Of a stretch of 64,000 nt of DNA, positions 23,249 to 62,400 are shown one piece after another. The stretch lies in assembly GCF_000165425.1 (NCBI RefSeq), contig NW_001799411.1:186001-250000 (forward strand), read 5' to 3'. A program made the translations under genes and the position numbers. Source of the stretch: Paramecium tetraurelia. Lineage: Eukaryota; Ciliophora; Oligohymenophorea; Peniculida; Parameciidae. Every line of letters starts with the position of its first letter. Position 1 is the first letter of the stretch. The notes beneath the pieces were generated by a model. That model saw only the letters and a list, made by a program, of their open reading frames with translations, was not told where the DNA came from and made no database searches.

Positions 23249-24629
23249 ATGTAATACACAGAAGATAACAGTAAAGAATTTTCAGATTTTTCTATCCTGA
23301 AAACCAAAAATAGCGAAACCCAAGTTGTCCAACCTACTGAAAATCCGTAAACAATCAAATTTGAACTATAGACCACCTATGAAGTTTACTTTTTAAGAGG
23401 CTGAAGAAATTATTCAAAAATTTCGTGTCTATAAACCTTAAAATAAACAGTTTAAATACGAAAGCCTACTAAAACTCTAGAATTGCAAACTCAAAATCTA
23501 CAAAGATTCATATTATTTTGGTTAATTAGTTAATGGAAAAAAGAACGGGTTCGGAGTGATCTTGAGTAATAATGGAAGAACATATGAAGGGTAATTTGAA
23601 AACGATAGAAAGCATGGATAAGGGTTTGAGAGGTTTCCTGATGGAGCTTCATATCATGGCACATACATAAATGGAAAACCTGATGGAGTAGGCAAATTTC
23701 TTTGGGCTAATGGTGAACTTTACGATGGGAGCTGGCAAAATGGATTAAAACATGGATAAGGGATATGGAATGGAATCAAAGGGGATTCATATGTTGGAGA
23801 ATGGAGAATGGGTAATCCTCAAGGCTTTGGAGTTCATGTGTGGGTGAATGGAGACAGATACGAAGGAGAGTTCCATAATAGTTTAAAACATGGAGAAGGA
23901 ATTGAGTATCTAATAAATGGAGATGTGTATAAGGGCTAGTATGTGAATGGGAAACCAGAAGGAGTTGGAGAATATTAATGGAGTTCAGGAAGTTACTATA
24001 ATGGCACTTTTTCAAATGGTCTAAGACATGGCAAGGGGTTGTGGATCAAAGATAGAAATGCCACTTTAACTGATAGTTATGATGGAGAATTTGTGAATGA
24101 TAAAAAATGCGGCTATGGAGTTTACAAATGGGCAAAGGGAAGTAAATATGAAGGGAACTTTTATGATGATCTCAGACATGGGTATGGAAGCATGTATTGG
24201 AATGATGGATCCTACTATATAGGCATGTGGGAGTAAGGATATTAATGGGGAGAAGGGGAATACGTAACATTATAATCTTAAATTTAGTGTAAAAAAGGAG
24301 AGCAACCTAAATTTGGAACATTTGAGAAAAATCTATTGGTTAGAGAAGATTAAGAAAAATTAATACAATATCATAGTAAATAACAACCTTAAATCCGCAT
24401 TAGATAATATACAAGTAAATAAATTAATTAGGTTTACATAGCTAGTTAAAGAAGTGTTAGATCTAATAGTCAAAGGCCAAGTAGCTAGAGTTAACAAAGA
24501 AATGTGAGGCCCAGTAGTGTTAAGAGTGTTAATTAAGTCAAACAAGGATCGATGGGCAATAATTAATTTTTTTGTAAGAAAAAGAGATAACCATCATTAC
24601 CAAAATAAACATTTGATTTCGATTTTTGA
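23249..24629 (+). CDS. MORN-repeat protein
   Basis: ATG 23249, one 25-nt intron near 23348, TGA 24627-24629; 451 residues. From about residue 75 to 340 there are some ten or eleven MORN repeats of about 23 residues, for example YEGQFENDRKHGQGFERF, YDGSWQNGLKHGQGIW, YVGEWRMGNPQGFGV and YEGEFHNSLKHGEGIEYL. MORN arrays bind membranes or act as scaffolds at the cortex, basal bodies and cilia of protists. The N-terminus is acidic and low complexity. The C-terminal 110 residues are Ser/Arg/Gln-rich and probably disordered (SQRSVRSNSQRPSSQS). No enzyme domain is attached, unlike MORN-PIP kinases. It lies on the same strand as the kinase, 63 bp downstream. Confidence 0.92.
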
Positions 24630-56804: not shown

Positions 56805-59395
56805 ATGAAGAGGAGTGAATAAATTAATAGTAATTTCTAGATCATATGATATTCTACTAGAAGCAATCTCTATAAGAGAAGCACAAGAAGTTGAAAACCA
56901 ACTGCTAAAATAAAATCATTGCTAAGTTTTAGGTTTTTTGAAGCATGAATAGAGATTATATCAAAGTGAAATTACAATTAACTTGAGTGAAAATTCTGAA
57001 TTAATCTTTGTTAAAGAGGGAGAAGTTCTTTCAATGTAAGTACTCCAGTTCAACTCTAGTTAAAAATATATTGATCATAATACCATTTTGAATATTAGTC
57101 CTAATTTTGAACAACTTAAGAGATTATTTTGGGTTGGATAGACCAATAAAAAGGGATAGAAGATTGGGAAATGGAATGCATTTTGGAGAGGTGAGAACCT
57201 TAATGTTGGAGGGTGTTACTATGATAACGGAGAAAAATATGGAAAATGGATTGAATTATTTGAGAATTATTGGGAGTAATTATCACGCAAAATATAAGTA
57301 AAGCCTAAGTCACATACTAAGGCTATTATGAAAATAATAAGAAACAAGGGTATTGGAAAATTCTTTCTAGTGACACAGAAATGTAAATTAGAATTAAAAA
57401 TATTAAATTAGTGGGGGTGGAGAGTATGAAGATGGGGAAAAAACTGGATATTGGGTTGATATTTACGAAAATTATAGTAGGTTGGCAATCTTATTTATAT
57501 CTTTTAGTTGGTGTAAGGTTACAGAGAGAGGGAAATATAAGAATGGGAAGAAAATAAAGGAATGGATTTAAATATATCAGAATAAAATAGTGTTTATTAA
57601 ATTCTTTATAAATTAGAGGAGCTGGAACCTATAATGATGATTATGTTAAAGCAGGACAGTGGTCTGATTTGCATGAAAACTTTTATGAGTATATTAGAAA
57701 CTAAAGAGTTTAGTTGGTGTCAAGTGACCCATGAAGGAAAGTATTAAAATGGGATAAAAAAAGGATAGTGGAAGACAATTTTTGAATAAAAAACGCTGTG
57801 AGAATTTTATTATAATCTTAGTGCATAAGTAAACTACAAAGAAGGAGGAATAAAGGATGGAGATTGGTGTGAGATTTATAACAACTTCTCTATGTAATAA
57901 TTCTATTAATTTTTATAGAAATAATTAGACAAAATACATTTGCAAATATAAAGATGGGAAGCCATGCAAATAATTGCATATAATTGATAAAATCCATACT
58001 ATGTATTATTTCAAATATAATAAATAAGTGGAGGTGGGACATTTAATGAAAATGGAATGAAAAATTGGAAATGGATAGAAATACACGAAAATTATTAAGA
58101 GTTATACATACATAAATAAAATATATTAGTTACGGTAAAGTGACTTATGAAGGAATATATAACAATGAAAGAAAAGAAGGAAAATGGCGCACTTATTATA
58201 ATTACTTTTTAATGTAATTATTTTATTTGATTCAATATTTAGAGGTGGAGGGTGTTATTAATTTGGATTAAAGTTTGGCAATTGGATTGATTTACATGAA
58301 CATTTTTAAGAGTAAATTCACAATTTATTCGAATAGTTCATGTTAGGTGAGTTTTAAAGGAGAGTACAAAAATGGAAAGAAAATTAAAAGGTGGGATACA
58401 TTATATAAATAAGAAATAATGTAAATGAAAACTGTATTAATTCTTTAGAGGAGGAGGTTAATATGATGAAAATGAATACAAAATCGGAAGATGGATTACT
58501 TTAGATGAAAATTTTGGAAGGTAGAAAATATTAGTTTAATTTATCAGTCTTTGTTAGGTTACTTGGAATGGATAATACAGTAAAGGAATTAAATTTGGAA
58601 AATGGGAAATCTATTTTAAGAATTAAATTATGTATTTTGAAATCTATTAATATAAGTGGAGGCGGAATCTATGATTATAAGGGTACAAAATAGGGCCAAT
58701 GGATTGAATTACATTCTCAGTTTTGGGAGTAAGAACCTCTTAATAATTAGCTAATAATGCATCAGATTTAGTGGAGAGTATTTTGATGGAAGAAAACAGG
58801 GATTTTGGGAGACATTGTAATAGAATAAAAGAATGTAGAATCAAATATTGTTAAATTTAGTGGAGGAGGAAAATATGATTTAGATGGCATGAAGTAAGGT
58901 AAATGGATTCAATTGCATCAAAAGTTTTTGAAGTACTTGATTTATGCTTAAGAAAGGAATAATCTATTTTTTATTGGGGATTATGTGGATTCTAGAAAAT
59001 GTGGAAAATGGGATGCCCTATTGGATCAGAAATTAATGTTAGTTTAATTTACATATTAGAGGATGTGGTTTGTATGATGATAATGGATTTAAAATTGGAA
59101 ATTGGATTGATTTACATGAGCCTTATATGAAGTAAGGAATAGTAATTGATCATAGCACTTGCATTAGTTATTTGGGGAAGTACAACAATGGAAGGAAAGA
59201 AGGAGAATGGAAGACCTTTATTTAATATCAGCAGATGTATAGGAGATTGATTATTCACATATAGCGGAGGAGGGCATTATGATGAAAATGGATAAAAAAG
59301 TGGAAAATGGATAGAATTGGATGGGAATTATAACCAAAATATATTAACTAGAGAGGCAGAATATCAAAATGGTATAAAGTAGTGAGGTTGTTTAA
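56805..59395 (+). CDS. Gene of about eleven MORN-like units, each with two introns
   Basis: ATG 56805, a 31-nt first intron near 56829, TGA 59393-59395. After a 100-residue unique N-terminus, the protein is a chain of units spaced about 205 bp apart (near 57180, 57412, 57620, 57826, 58031, 58244, 58450, 58660, 58862, 59062 and 59266). Each starts GGGxYDxxGxKxGxW (for example YDNGEKYGKWIELFENYW, YDLDGMKQGKWIQLH) and continues with a second half like GEYFDGRKQGFWETL. This resembles distorted MORN repeats. Most units carry two short introns, one just before GGG and one after the W-E-x-x-E-N-F helix, at matching positions. The 57826 unit has lost GGG. Paramecium has a lineage-specific family of this style; function unknown, perhaps a membrane or cortex scaffold. 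Confidence 0.75.
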
Positions 59396-59494: not shown

Positions 59495-62400
59495 ATGGGA
59501 AACACCCAAGGGACACCAAGTGATTTGGACTCATTTAGGAAATATGCTGGACTAACAATTAAGCATGTTATGATGCTGAGGTACAAGTTGTATAATAGGA
59601 ATAGGGAACGGCTGGAAATGTTATCGGAGGCGGATTTAAGTATAACAAAGGACGCATTTTCTTTGGCGATGAAGACAAAGGAGGAGGAGACTGAAAGGGT
59701 ATAAGTAATATATATAATAAAGATATTTCGTATATTTGATTTGAGCAGTTCAGGTAAAATAGAAACATTAGAGTTTGTGTGTGCATTGTCATTGATGGCC
59801 TATGCAAATCTAAGGGTATGTAATAATGATGAGATAGGAAAAATGTGATTTAATGTTTGGGTTATATGACTTTGATCGAAATAGAACGATGAATAAATAG
59901 GAGTTGATCATATTGATAAAGACAGTTCTAACAACAGTGAATGCCATATCGTCGAAAGGAGAATGTTCAATATAAGAGGCAGTTGGGATAGCATAGGTCA
60001 TTTTGGATCGTTATGACACAAATGGAGATGCTTCAATATCAGCAAAAGAGTTCTACAGTTTCGTTTCCAAAGATCCTGATATAGTGAAAATGTTATTAAG
60101 CTATGGATTAATATCAATACAGGATTTGAGATTCAATTTTGGTGAGCCTTAGAATAGTGAGTTGCCAGTGCCTGAGGCAGACAGTGATTTAGAAAATGAA
60201 ATATATAAGAGCAGGATTATAAAGACAGCAGAGGATGAAGGAGTGGCTTTGGGATTAGAGACTTAGATGAAAGGGAATGGGATTGAATAGCTGGCTTGGT
60301 ATTAGTAATTATCAAAGGATAATATGATTATGGATCCAGATGATCCTGAAGATGTAAATGGGAATCCACCGAATGCAACTTTGGAGATTGATCATGTCTA
60401 TGGATTTAGATGTTTTGATACTAGAAACAACATCAAATATTCAACCGAGAATGAATTGTTGTATCACACAGGTAGTTTAGTGATCAAAGACGGAGAGAAG
60501 TAGGAATTCTTTATGGAACACACTGACGATGTGACATGCTTGGATGTATGGGAACATTTGGTGGCAACTGGATAGATGGGGTCAAAGCCATCCATATTTG
60601 TATGGGATTCAAGGTCAATGGAATTGAGAGCAGTATTTAGAGGAGTGTTAACAGTAGGAGTAAGCAATCTATGTATATCGAATGACGGAAGGAAGTTGGC
60701 AGCAGTGGGGATGGATGAAGATCAATGTGTTGTTGTGTATGATATAGAAAAAGGGTCTTAAACGAGAATGAATGGGAGGAAGGATGAGTCTTTGTTGGCT
60801 AATGGAAAAGGGCCTATTGTTGAGATATTTGATATCAAGTTTGAAAAATCTGATAAGTAGATTGTGATTGCATGTATGGGAGAAGTGAATTTTGTTACTT
60901 ATGACAACAATGTATTAAGAGTAGTAAAGGGGATGTGGGATTCTAAATATTGTTCCTATTAAGCTATTTTATCGATTGGATTGTTGGAGAATGCGGTGGT
61001 GGTAGGATCATTTAAAGGATATTTGCTCTTATGGAGAGTGGGTAGAACTACAATGGCTATTCCTGATGCTCATAAGGGACCTATTACAACCATTCATACC
61101 TGTAGTAAGAAGATTATGATCTTGACTGGAGGAAAAGATGGTTAAATTGGATGGTGGGACCACAATCTGAAGAAGATTAGAGCTTTCAATCTCGCCAATT
61201 AGAAAGATATTTAATTAAACAATATCAAAATTACTGCTTTGTATGAGAATATGGATTAAACTGCTATTTTGATAGGAACGAGAGGAGGATAGATCTTGGA
61301 ACTTAAAAACAGTGAATTGAAAGTAAGAGTAAATTCACATTTCGATGGCAAATTGGAAGCTTTAGTGTGTCATCCTACAAAAGATTTATTTTACACTTCT
61401 GGTGAGGATCAGATGTTGATGTTATGGGATCTGAGTACTAAAGAATTGAAGGAAAAGAAGAAATTTGATTATTGTATTAAGACTTTAGATGTCAATGATA
61501 AGTATTTGGTTGGTGGATGTGGCAATGGTAATGTTCTACTATTGGAGCCTTACAAATTAACACTTTTGTAAGATTTCAAAGACAGAGATAGTGAAATCAC
61601 GTGTATTAGAATTGTGGATGAATATTTAATTGCATTTTACTCATCACCATATTATGAATTCTTTGTTTATAGTATCAGGTAGAAGTTTAAGAAATTGTTA
61701 TCCATTCCAGGCAGACCTGGTAATTGCACATCTATTGATTATTCAATGACCAAAAGGATTTTAGTCACTTTTGATAATCAATAATTGTGGTGTATTGATT
61801 TGGATCAGAGATAATTGATTAAATACAAGGAAGATGATTGGAAATCCTTTACTTCTATTTATGGATGGTAGATAAAAGGAGCTTGGCCATAGAAGGCTGA
61901 TGGAACAGAAATCATTACGACTGATAGAGATAGCACAAAATCAGTCCTAGCGATTGGGGACAAATATGGATAGATAAAACTATATAAGTATCCTGCTTAC
62001 AAATTAAACTGCAGTTTCTATCGTTATTTGGGTCATAGTGGTAGAATCAGTAAGCTAAGATTCTCATTTAATGATAAATGTCTCATTAGTCTTGGAGAGA
62101 ATGAGAAAAGCATAATTCAATGGAACTTTCAGGTCGAACAGAATGTCGTGGAAAGAAGTAGTACAGCTCATTCAAGGAATCGAAGTGCTTTCAAATCAGA
62201 GTTAGATCAGTTTGATGATCAGATGGATGGTAATGATAACTAAAAGACTAACAAGCCATTCCTGGATTAAATCAAAATGGATGAGGCTGAAGAAGAATCA
62301 ATGAAGTTACCTGTTAATTATCTTAATTTGCGATATATCTTTGGAGTGTCCACCAGTTATAAAGGGAACACTCTATATTAACAACTGAAATATGCTGGTC

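Follow-up and report, generated by a model that had tools for sequence, protein, structure and literature searches.

A Paramecium tetraurelia repeat gene with two phase-2 introns per unit probably grew by tandem copying of exon-intron modules

Introduction

How does a repeat gene come to carry two very short introns at the same two places in nearly every unit? The question is raised by a gene in a 64,000-nucleotide stretch of Paramecium tetraurelia DNA (RefSeq assembly GCF_000165425.1, contig NW_001799411.1, positions 186,001 to 250,000), which we call the window. The genomes of Paramecium are portrayed as streamlined, and their tiny introns number about two per gene (PMC11334263). For this gene the original prediction offered two explanations. 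Either the exon-intron unit itself was copied many times, or introns were inserted repeatedly at one motif. Here we describe the gene and its relatives in the same genome and weigh these and other explanations.

Results

Gene model and array layout

The coding region lies on the + strand, from an ATG at 56805 to a TGA at 59383-59385. It encodes 670 residues and contains 22 predicted introns of 22-31 nt (Table 1). Reading it requires the ciliate code, in which TAA and TAG encode Gln and TGA is the stop. The introns make up 568 of 2581 bp, at a predicted density of 10.9 per kb of coding sequence, and the spliced frame is closed across 671 codons including the stop. Sixteen of the 22 introns have lengths that are not multiples of three, so the frame survives only after their removal. 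Within the array this holds for 15 of 20, and the unspliced repeat would therefore fall out of frame. Among the six remaining introns, one contains an in-frame TGA and five would be translatable if retained. Off-consensus splice sites comprise four GTT donors and one GTG donor, and four AAG acceptors and one CAG acceptor. From the sequence, we infer that the predicted introns are spliced out in vivo.

Two of the introns are N-terminal and the other 20 lie in the array. As predicted, they recur at two matching sites. Intron A (before GGGxYD) stands ahead of units 2-11 and intron B (after ENFW) within units 1-10. Each site is occupied at 10 of 11 places, so the claim of two introns in each unit fails at the two ends: no intron precedes the VGG of unit 1, and unit 11 lacks intron B. 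The spliced profile scan found 11 units, in line with the original estimate of about eleven, with the motif GGGxYDxxGxKxGxW. They start at 57205, 57413, 57618, 57823, 58030, 58244, 58450, 58658, 58862, 59061 and 59266. Their spacing is 199-214 bp, not the 200-232 bp first reported. Unit 4 (57823-58002) has lost GGG and several motif residues, and both of its introns are retained in place and phase.

Each of the 20 array introns is GT...AG, 22-29 nt long, and interrupts one of two fixed codons in phase 2 (20/20; naive chance about 9e-10). The 19 internal array exons alternate between two sizes: nine short ones are 72 nt long, except for two of 69, and ten long ones are 84 nt, except for two of 81. 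All 19 are multiples of three with phase 2 at both boundaries. With the same intron phase on either side, such exons can be gained or lost in any number and the frame is unaffected.

Table 1. Predicted features of the repeat gene (window positions; model, gene model; scan, spliced profile scan).
Feature	Details	Position	Strand	Basis
Gene	22 predicted introns, 670 residues, ciliate code	56805..59385	+	model
N-terminal intron	31 nt, phase 1, takes out in-frame TGA	56830..56860	+	model
N-terminal intron	24 nt, phase 2, translatable if retained; least certain	57036..57059	+	model
Leading half-unit	KKGQKIGKWNAFWRGENL; no intron separates it from unit 1	57148..57204	+	scan
Unit 1, first half		57205..57275	+	scan
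Intron B, unit 1	23 nt, phase 2, acceptor AAG	57276..57298	+	model + scan
Intron A before unit 2	29 nt, phase 2	57383..57411	+	model + scan
Intron B, unit 2	27 nt, phase 2, donor GTTGGC, translatable if retained	57481..57507	+	model + scan
Intron A before unit 3	25 nt, phase 2, donor GTTTAT	57592..57616	+	model + scan
Intron B, unit 3	25 nt, phase 2	57689..57713	+	model + scan
Intron A before unit 4	24 nt, phase 2, donor GTGAGA, in-frame TGA	57798..57821	+	model + scan
Intron B, unit 4	25 nt, phase 2	57894..57918	+	model + scan
Intron A before unit 5	26 nt, phase 2, acceptor AAG	58003..58028	+	model + scan
Intron B, unit 5	29 nt, phase 2, donor GTTATA	58101..58129	+	model + scan
Intron A before unit 6	29 nt, phase 2	58214..58242	+	model + scan
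Intron B, unit 6	25 nt, phase 2	58312..58336	+	model + scan
Intron A before unit 7	28 nt, phase 2	58421..58448	+	model + scan
Intron B, unit 7	27 nt, phase 2, acceptor CAG, translatable if retained	58521..58547	+	model + scan
Intron A before unit 8	25 nt, phase 2, acceptor AAG	58632..58656	+	model + scan
Intron B, unit 8	22 nt, phase 2	58729..58750	+	model + scan
Intron A before unit 9	26 nt, phase 2	58835..58860	+	model + scan
Intron B, unit 9	24 nt, phase 2, acceptor AAG, translatable if retained	58933..58956	+	model + scan
Intron A before unit 10	22 nt, phase 2, donor GTTAGT	59038..59059	+	model + scan
Intron B, unit 10	24 nt, phase 2, translatable if retained	59132..59155	+	model + scan
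Intron A before unit 11	28 nt, phase 2	59237..59264	+	model + scan
Last exon, unit 11	no intron B, stop TGA	59265..59385	+	model + scan

In the spliced profile scan an intron could be 18-40 nt long and fall at any place, whatever its phase. The scan recovered the identical set of 20 in the array, at unit positions 23/24 and 51 and always in phase 2; it is not independent of the gene model, since the profile was made from the window's own units, spliced likewise. A generic spliced-ORF decoder, blind to the repeat, gave 14 of the 20 array introns exactly at an intron penalty of -5 and 17 at -3. It additionally gave a few extra or shifted introns, and its intron set varies with the penalty. We rejected the extra introns (57350, 57741 and others) and the shifted ends at 57477, 57590 and 57829, which broke or shortened the repeat, and used the profile-guided model instead; the end at 57477, an alternative start for intron B of unit 2, breaks the repeat frame. 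When nine other 6-kb pieces of the window were scanned on both strands as a control, there were five matches. Three fell in a canonical MORN gene from 23511 on, and the other two had net scores of at most 1.9, compared with 716.7 for the array.

Relatives in the genome and the state of intron B

The assembly has 69 Mb in 231 contigs and appears to be macronuclear; the GC content of the window is 0.296. Protein searches of this genome gave at least 153 and at least 130 matches, and among the matches listed for the first search 32 contigs were represented. From the genome 32 loci were taken (L034-L065; several coordinates are hand-rounded), and the spliced profile was run along both of their strands. 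Together with the window gene they yielded 457 decoded introns, of which 392 are in phase 2 at site A (248) or site B (144). After units shorter than 45 residues had been dropped, 276 units were left, which is a lower bound. Intron A is present in 230 of these and intron B in 151.

The state of intron B was then compared among 30 arrays (29 and the window's), arrays with fewer than four inner units being dropped and inner units being those after the first. Three loci, L034, L043 and L050, were each entered as a single array although they probably contain two or more genes apiece. Intron B is present in 123 of the 238 inner units and is strongly clustered by array, with a chi-square of 173 and a maximum of 60.1 in 5000 permutations. 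Eleven arrays have it in every inner unit (the window gene, L052, L060, L061 and others). Nine have it in none (L035, L037, L038, L040, L043, L046, L048, L049 and L055), and in five of these nine the first full unit keeps it. The other ten are mixed, from 4/26 (L050) to 6/7 (L047), and part of this mixture may be decoder error. In L035, L046, L048, L049 and L055 the inner units read in frame through site B with a few extra residues at most (L055), so the absence of intron B from them is real. The first unit of L046, scored as lacking B, has extra residues at site B, where an intron with a length divisible by three may have been missed. Clustering by array is unexpected if introns were inserted or lost unit by unit, and expected if units were copied with their introns.

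On a tree of the units, with six columns around site B removed, the B state is clustered and needs 57 changes, compared with 90.8 in 200 shuffles (minimum 79). Array membership, clustered as well, needs 192 changes on the same tree, compared with 230.8 when shuffled (minimum 224 in 100). On a gene tree the B state is not clustered: it needs 9 changes, the shuffled mean is 9.8, and 200 of 500 shuffles are as low. The gene tree was made from the N-terminal half-unit and first unit (29 rows, 75 columns), has one starred inner branch, and includes a few rows that are inner fragments and not gene starts. The lack of clustering on it speaks against a single loss and may mean that B was lost several times, that arrays were exchanged between genes, or that the tree is too weak. 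Intron B in the first unit of arrays otherwise lacking it, together with its matching place in both halves of the unit, leads us to favour loss over gain, with gain at a homologous place the lesser possibility.

Each unit consists of two homologous halves

When the profile of the 276 units was compared with itself, the best offset was 28 positions (equivalently 24). The two half-units, aligned on their Trp, were outscored by only 7 of 5000 column permutations. By far the commonest intron place is the same in both halves, nine codons past the Trp and in phase 2 (144 introns at B, 248 at A). Since the halves are homologous and an intron follows each Trp by nine codons, the elementary module is one hairpin per exon, and the two introns per unit amount to one per half-unit.

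An AlphaFold model of a two-unit stretch of a relative that has no introns inside (L037:1761-2096) reached a pLDDT of 88.9. Counting from the model's Trp residues puts both intron places in inter-strand loops, so that each exon would correspond to about one beta-hairpin. The best structural matches of the predicted repeat fold are MORN-type proteins, and the array may have a MORN-like, all-beta hairpin fold. The original description of the units as MORN-like agrees with the predicted fold and not with the sequence profile: a Pfam search of the window protein gave no family at E<=10, MORN (PF02493) and leucine-rich repeats included. Among 39 stretches of relatives, 37 of them one unit or slightly more, Pfam gave three weak MORN matches (best E 0.074). 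The positive control for MORN, P0001, gave E 4.6e-41. Pfam names for the joined L035 and L048 proteins were rejected as weak and unrelated (best PpPFK_gamma-like_C, E 0.007, under the cut-off), as was the single match in a sequence search of solved structures (E 1.8).

The canonical MORN-repeat gene, at 23511-24000 on the + strand, matches Pfam MORN with E 4.6e-41 and is open under the ciliate code. In contrast to the array, this stretch is one open frame and its repeats have no introns.

Traces of copying in the intron sequences

The youngest duplications in the family include their introns. In L050, units 35 and 37 have exons that are 95% identical and an intron A identical at 29 of 29 positions. 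In the next pair of the same block, units 36 and 38, intron B is 86% identical. Unit 24 is a third copy, with an intron A 93% identical. An older two-unit block was found in L034 (units 22-23 to 24-25). Within arrays, intron A pairs at exon identities of 0.65-0.75 had identities of 0.542 (0.509 shuffled; 112 pairs) and 0.558 (0.503 shuffled; 32 pairs). Above an exon identity of 0.75 the values were 0.665 (0.541 shuffled; 11 pairs) and 0.939 (0.616 shuffled; 3 pairs). Below an exon identity of about 0.65 the introns are saturated, the window gene included. Family-wide within arrays, intron A similarity correlates weakly with exon similarity (Spearman 0.06, p 0.07), and between arrays there is no correlation.

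We also carried out the check suggested with the original prediction, whether introns are as conserved as exons. The answer is no in the window gene and yes in its youngest relatives. Intron B similarity between units of the window gene has a z of -0.41, none above mixed control sets. For intron A the z is 2.86; mixed sets have a mean of 0.95 and an sd of 1.11, and the excess is not convincing. The similarity of window intron A was significant against plain shuffles (0/200), and was dropped as unconvincing against mixed sets from different arrays. As the window introns are not conserved between units beyond mixed controls, copying in this gene must be old.

Sampled intron A pairs from different arrays, grouped into five bins of exon identity, had identities of 0.500-0.517 (0.507-0.525 after shuffling). 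When sets were made with a single intron from each array, the mean z was 0.95 (A) and 0.84 (B), with z>2 in 9/60 and 7/60, a slight excess that need not be kinship. Since pairs of introns taken across arrays do not exceed shuffles in similarity, introners or mobile introns are unsupported. The exon flanks of site A are conserved (T at -1 in 95%, G at +2 in 92%, G at +3 in 86%) because these bases are dictated by the encoded GGG. At site B conservation is weak, with A at -1 in 67% and the remainder mixed. No common target motif was seen in the exon flanks of the two sites.

Genomic setting

Family loci lie near contig ends: 20 of 32 are within 20 kb, where 3.6 are expected under uniform placement. 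In contrast, this was true of 1 of 31 canonical MORN loci (from 43 of 150 matches, those on contigs of known size). C106, a 12-kb contig, and the weak C171 stand outside the 32 loci of this test. No telomere repeats were seen in the last 60 bases of four contig ends, and a fifth end reads N. Repeats of CCCAAA/CCCCAA occur at most 300 bases from the end in contigs such as C15, C48, C50, C76, C89, C127 and C158, and are also internal to a few other contigs. A reversed control pattern outnumbered the telomere pattern, and being the same C/A repeat out of register it is no true control. C15 and C158 end in telomere repeats, and in these two contigs 110 and 170 kb separate the array from the closer end. 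We withheld the label subtelomeric from the family; arrays of repeats can break an assembly too, and either cause could give the observed placement.

The units of L050 (C106:2000-11999) span about 7 kb of the 12-kb contig and include recent two-unit duplications; this locus may be an unplaced piece of a larger array. Downstream of the window gene, a second gene runs from an ATG at 59495 to about 63907 (+), with EF-hand- and WD40-like frames by eye. Over its 4.4 kb the generic decoder placed introns of mixed phase, 10 at a penalty of -5 and 17 at -4.

Discussion

We consider it probable, with good confidence, that the gene grew by tandem copying of exon-intron modules and that its introns were carried along. 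This is the first of the two original explanations, with one amendment: the clustering of intron B by array, the copied two-unit block of L050 and the homology of the half-units with their matching introns agree with it, and the elementary module is the half-unit and not the 205-bp unit. The ancestral exon would have been one hairpin of about 24 or 28 residues with phase-2 introns of about 25 nt on either side. Doubling of this hairpin exon and intron would have given sites A and B, at the same place in homologous halves. Unequal crossing-over, or something like it, may then have amplified the resulting two-exon unit together with its introns. In certain sister genes the amplified unit would be one that had already lost intron B, so that the inner units of whole arrays have intron A alone. 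The introns would be taken out by the ordinary spliceosome working on very short introns. The product would be a long scaffold of stacked beta-hairpins, probably for binding proteins or membranes. Several observations count against this reading: the five of 22 introns that could be translated, the off-consensus splice sites, the ten of 30 arrays with mixed B states, the lack of convincing similarity among the introns of the window gene, the weak correlation of intron A with exon similarity across the family, and the unclustered B state on the gene tree.

In a wider form, the second original explanation holds that the units were duplicated first and that each then acquired its introns separately at one motif, by repeated insertion or by conversion of coding sequence. 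In Paramecium, the splicing of exonic sequence is named as a major way in which introns are gained (PMC11334263). The introns of the window gene are not recognisably related, and the mixed arrays and the scatter of B on the gene tree would also fit. However, B is all-or-none in 20 of the 30 arrays, introns were copied along with exons in L050, and sites A and B, with flanks only weakly conserved at B, share no motif at which insertion could have been repeated. We therefore regard independent insertion as unlikely.

It is more improbable still that many of the intervals are translated linkers, which would make the model's intron count too high. Among the 20 array introns, four have a length divisible by three and no in-frame stop, and could be read in this way; the repeat motifs on either side of the 15 others of non-triplet length are in different frames, and the arrays lacking B show that no residues are needed at that site. 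That the gene is a decaying family copy whose frameshifts have been mistaken for introns, as the eroded motif of unit 4 might suggest, is scarcely credible for 20 GT...AG intervals of such uniform length, at the same two codons and in one phase, in a frame that closes over its whole length.

Growth by copying of exon-intron modules would have a wider meaning. We lean, by a small measure, towards a second, independent ciliate origin of uniform phase-2 genes with one exon per module, on an unrelated fold and with introns of about 25 nt, in which the intron state is an inherited mark of the amplified unit. Uniform exon arrays were previously known from Tetrahymena alone, as far as the authors who described them were aware in other eukaryotes (PMC6564038). 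If our reading is true, gene growth by copying symmetrical exon-intron modules would be a general ciliate habit and not a single Tetrahymena event. A family with nearly one intron per hairpin also runs counter to the streamlined picture of Paramecium genomes and is a natural testing ground for the spread of introns: within a single array, the duplication of units and the loss or retention of their introns can be traced and ordered by the kinship of the units. Among the matches listed in full-text literature searches, no title dealt with the present family or with uniform exon arrays in Paramecium.

Such a gene may also carry a cost in splicing. In P. tetraurelia the mean retention is given as 3.3% per intron, with rates falling as introns per gene increase (PMC5663052); a naive product of this value leaves about 48% of 22-intron transcripts fully spliced. 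No exon skipping is reported for Paramecium by the same authors (PMC5663052), so the symmetrical exons probably serve gene growth and not alternative splicing.

The introns themselves are ordinary for Paramecium, being 22-31 nt and mostly GTA..TAG where the mean is about 25 nt (PMC11334263, PMC5663052). Their number is not: ordinary genes have about two (PMC11334263, PMC5663052, PMC5014332) and this gene has 22. MORN proteins (PF02493; solved MORN1 and MORN4) have an all-beta hairpin repeat like that predicted for the window protein. In contrast, the MORN profile has no match to the window protein, and the canonical MORN gene of the window has no intron among its repeats at 23511-24000.

The closest known system is the leucine-rich repeat (LRR) genes of Tetrahymena, another ciliate, which also consist of tandem, symmetrical and uniform exons divisible by three (PMC6564038). 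In these genes more than 98% of the introns before the tandem 90-bp exons are in phase 2, and more than 96% of such exons have phase-2 introns on both sides. Their arrays have been explained by exon shuffling, unequal crossing-over and possibly retrotransposition, and a single origin was suggested (PMC6564038). The two systems share an extreme phase-2 bias, large and variable arrays, nucleotide similarity between the units of young members, and proposed growth by unequal crossing-over of exon-intron units (PMC6564038). They differ in the repeat, which is LRR in Tetrahymena and predicted to be MORN-like here. Exon size differs as well, 90 bp there and alternating 72/69 and 84/81 bp here, where none of the 19 internal exons is of 90 nt. 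Tetrahymena introns are about 50 nt or more, whereas those of the Paramecium family are about 25 nt. An association with a germline retrotransposon (REP) is given as a feature of the Tetrahymena 90-bp LRR genes (PMC6564038). Finally, the Tetrahymena arrays comprise tens of thousands of exons, and the Paramecium family at least 276 near-complete units as measured here.
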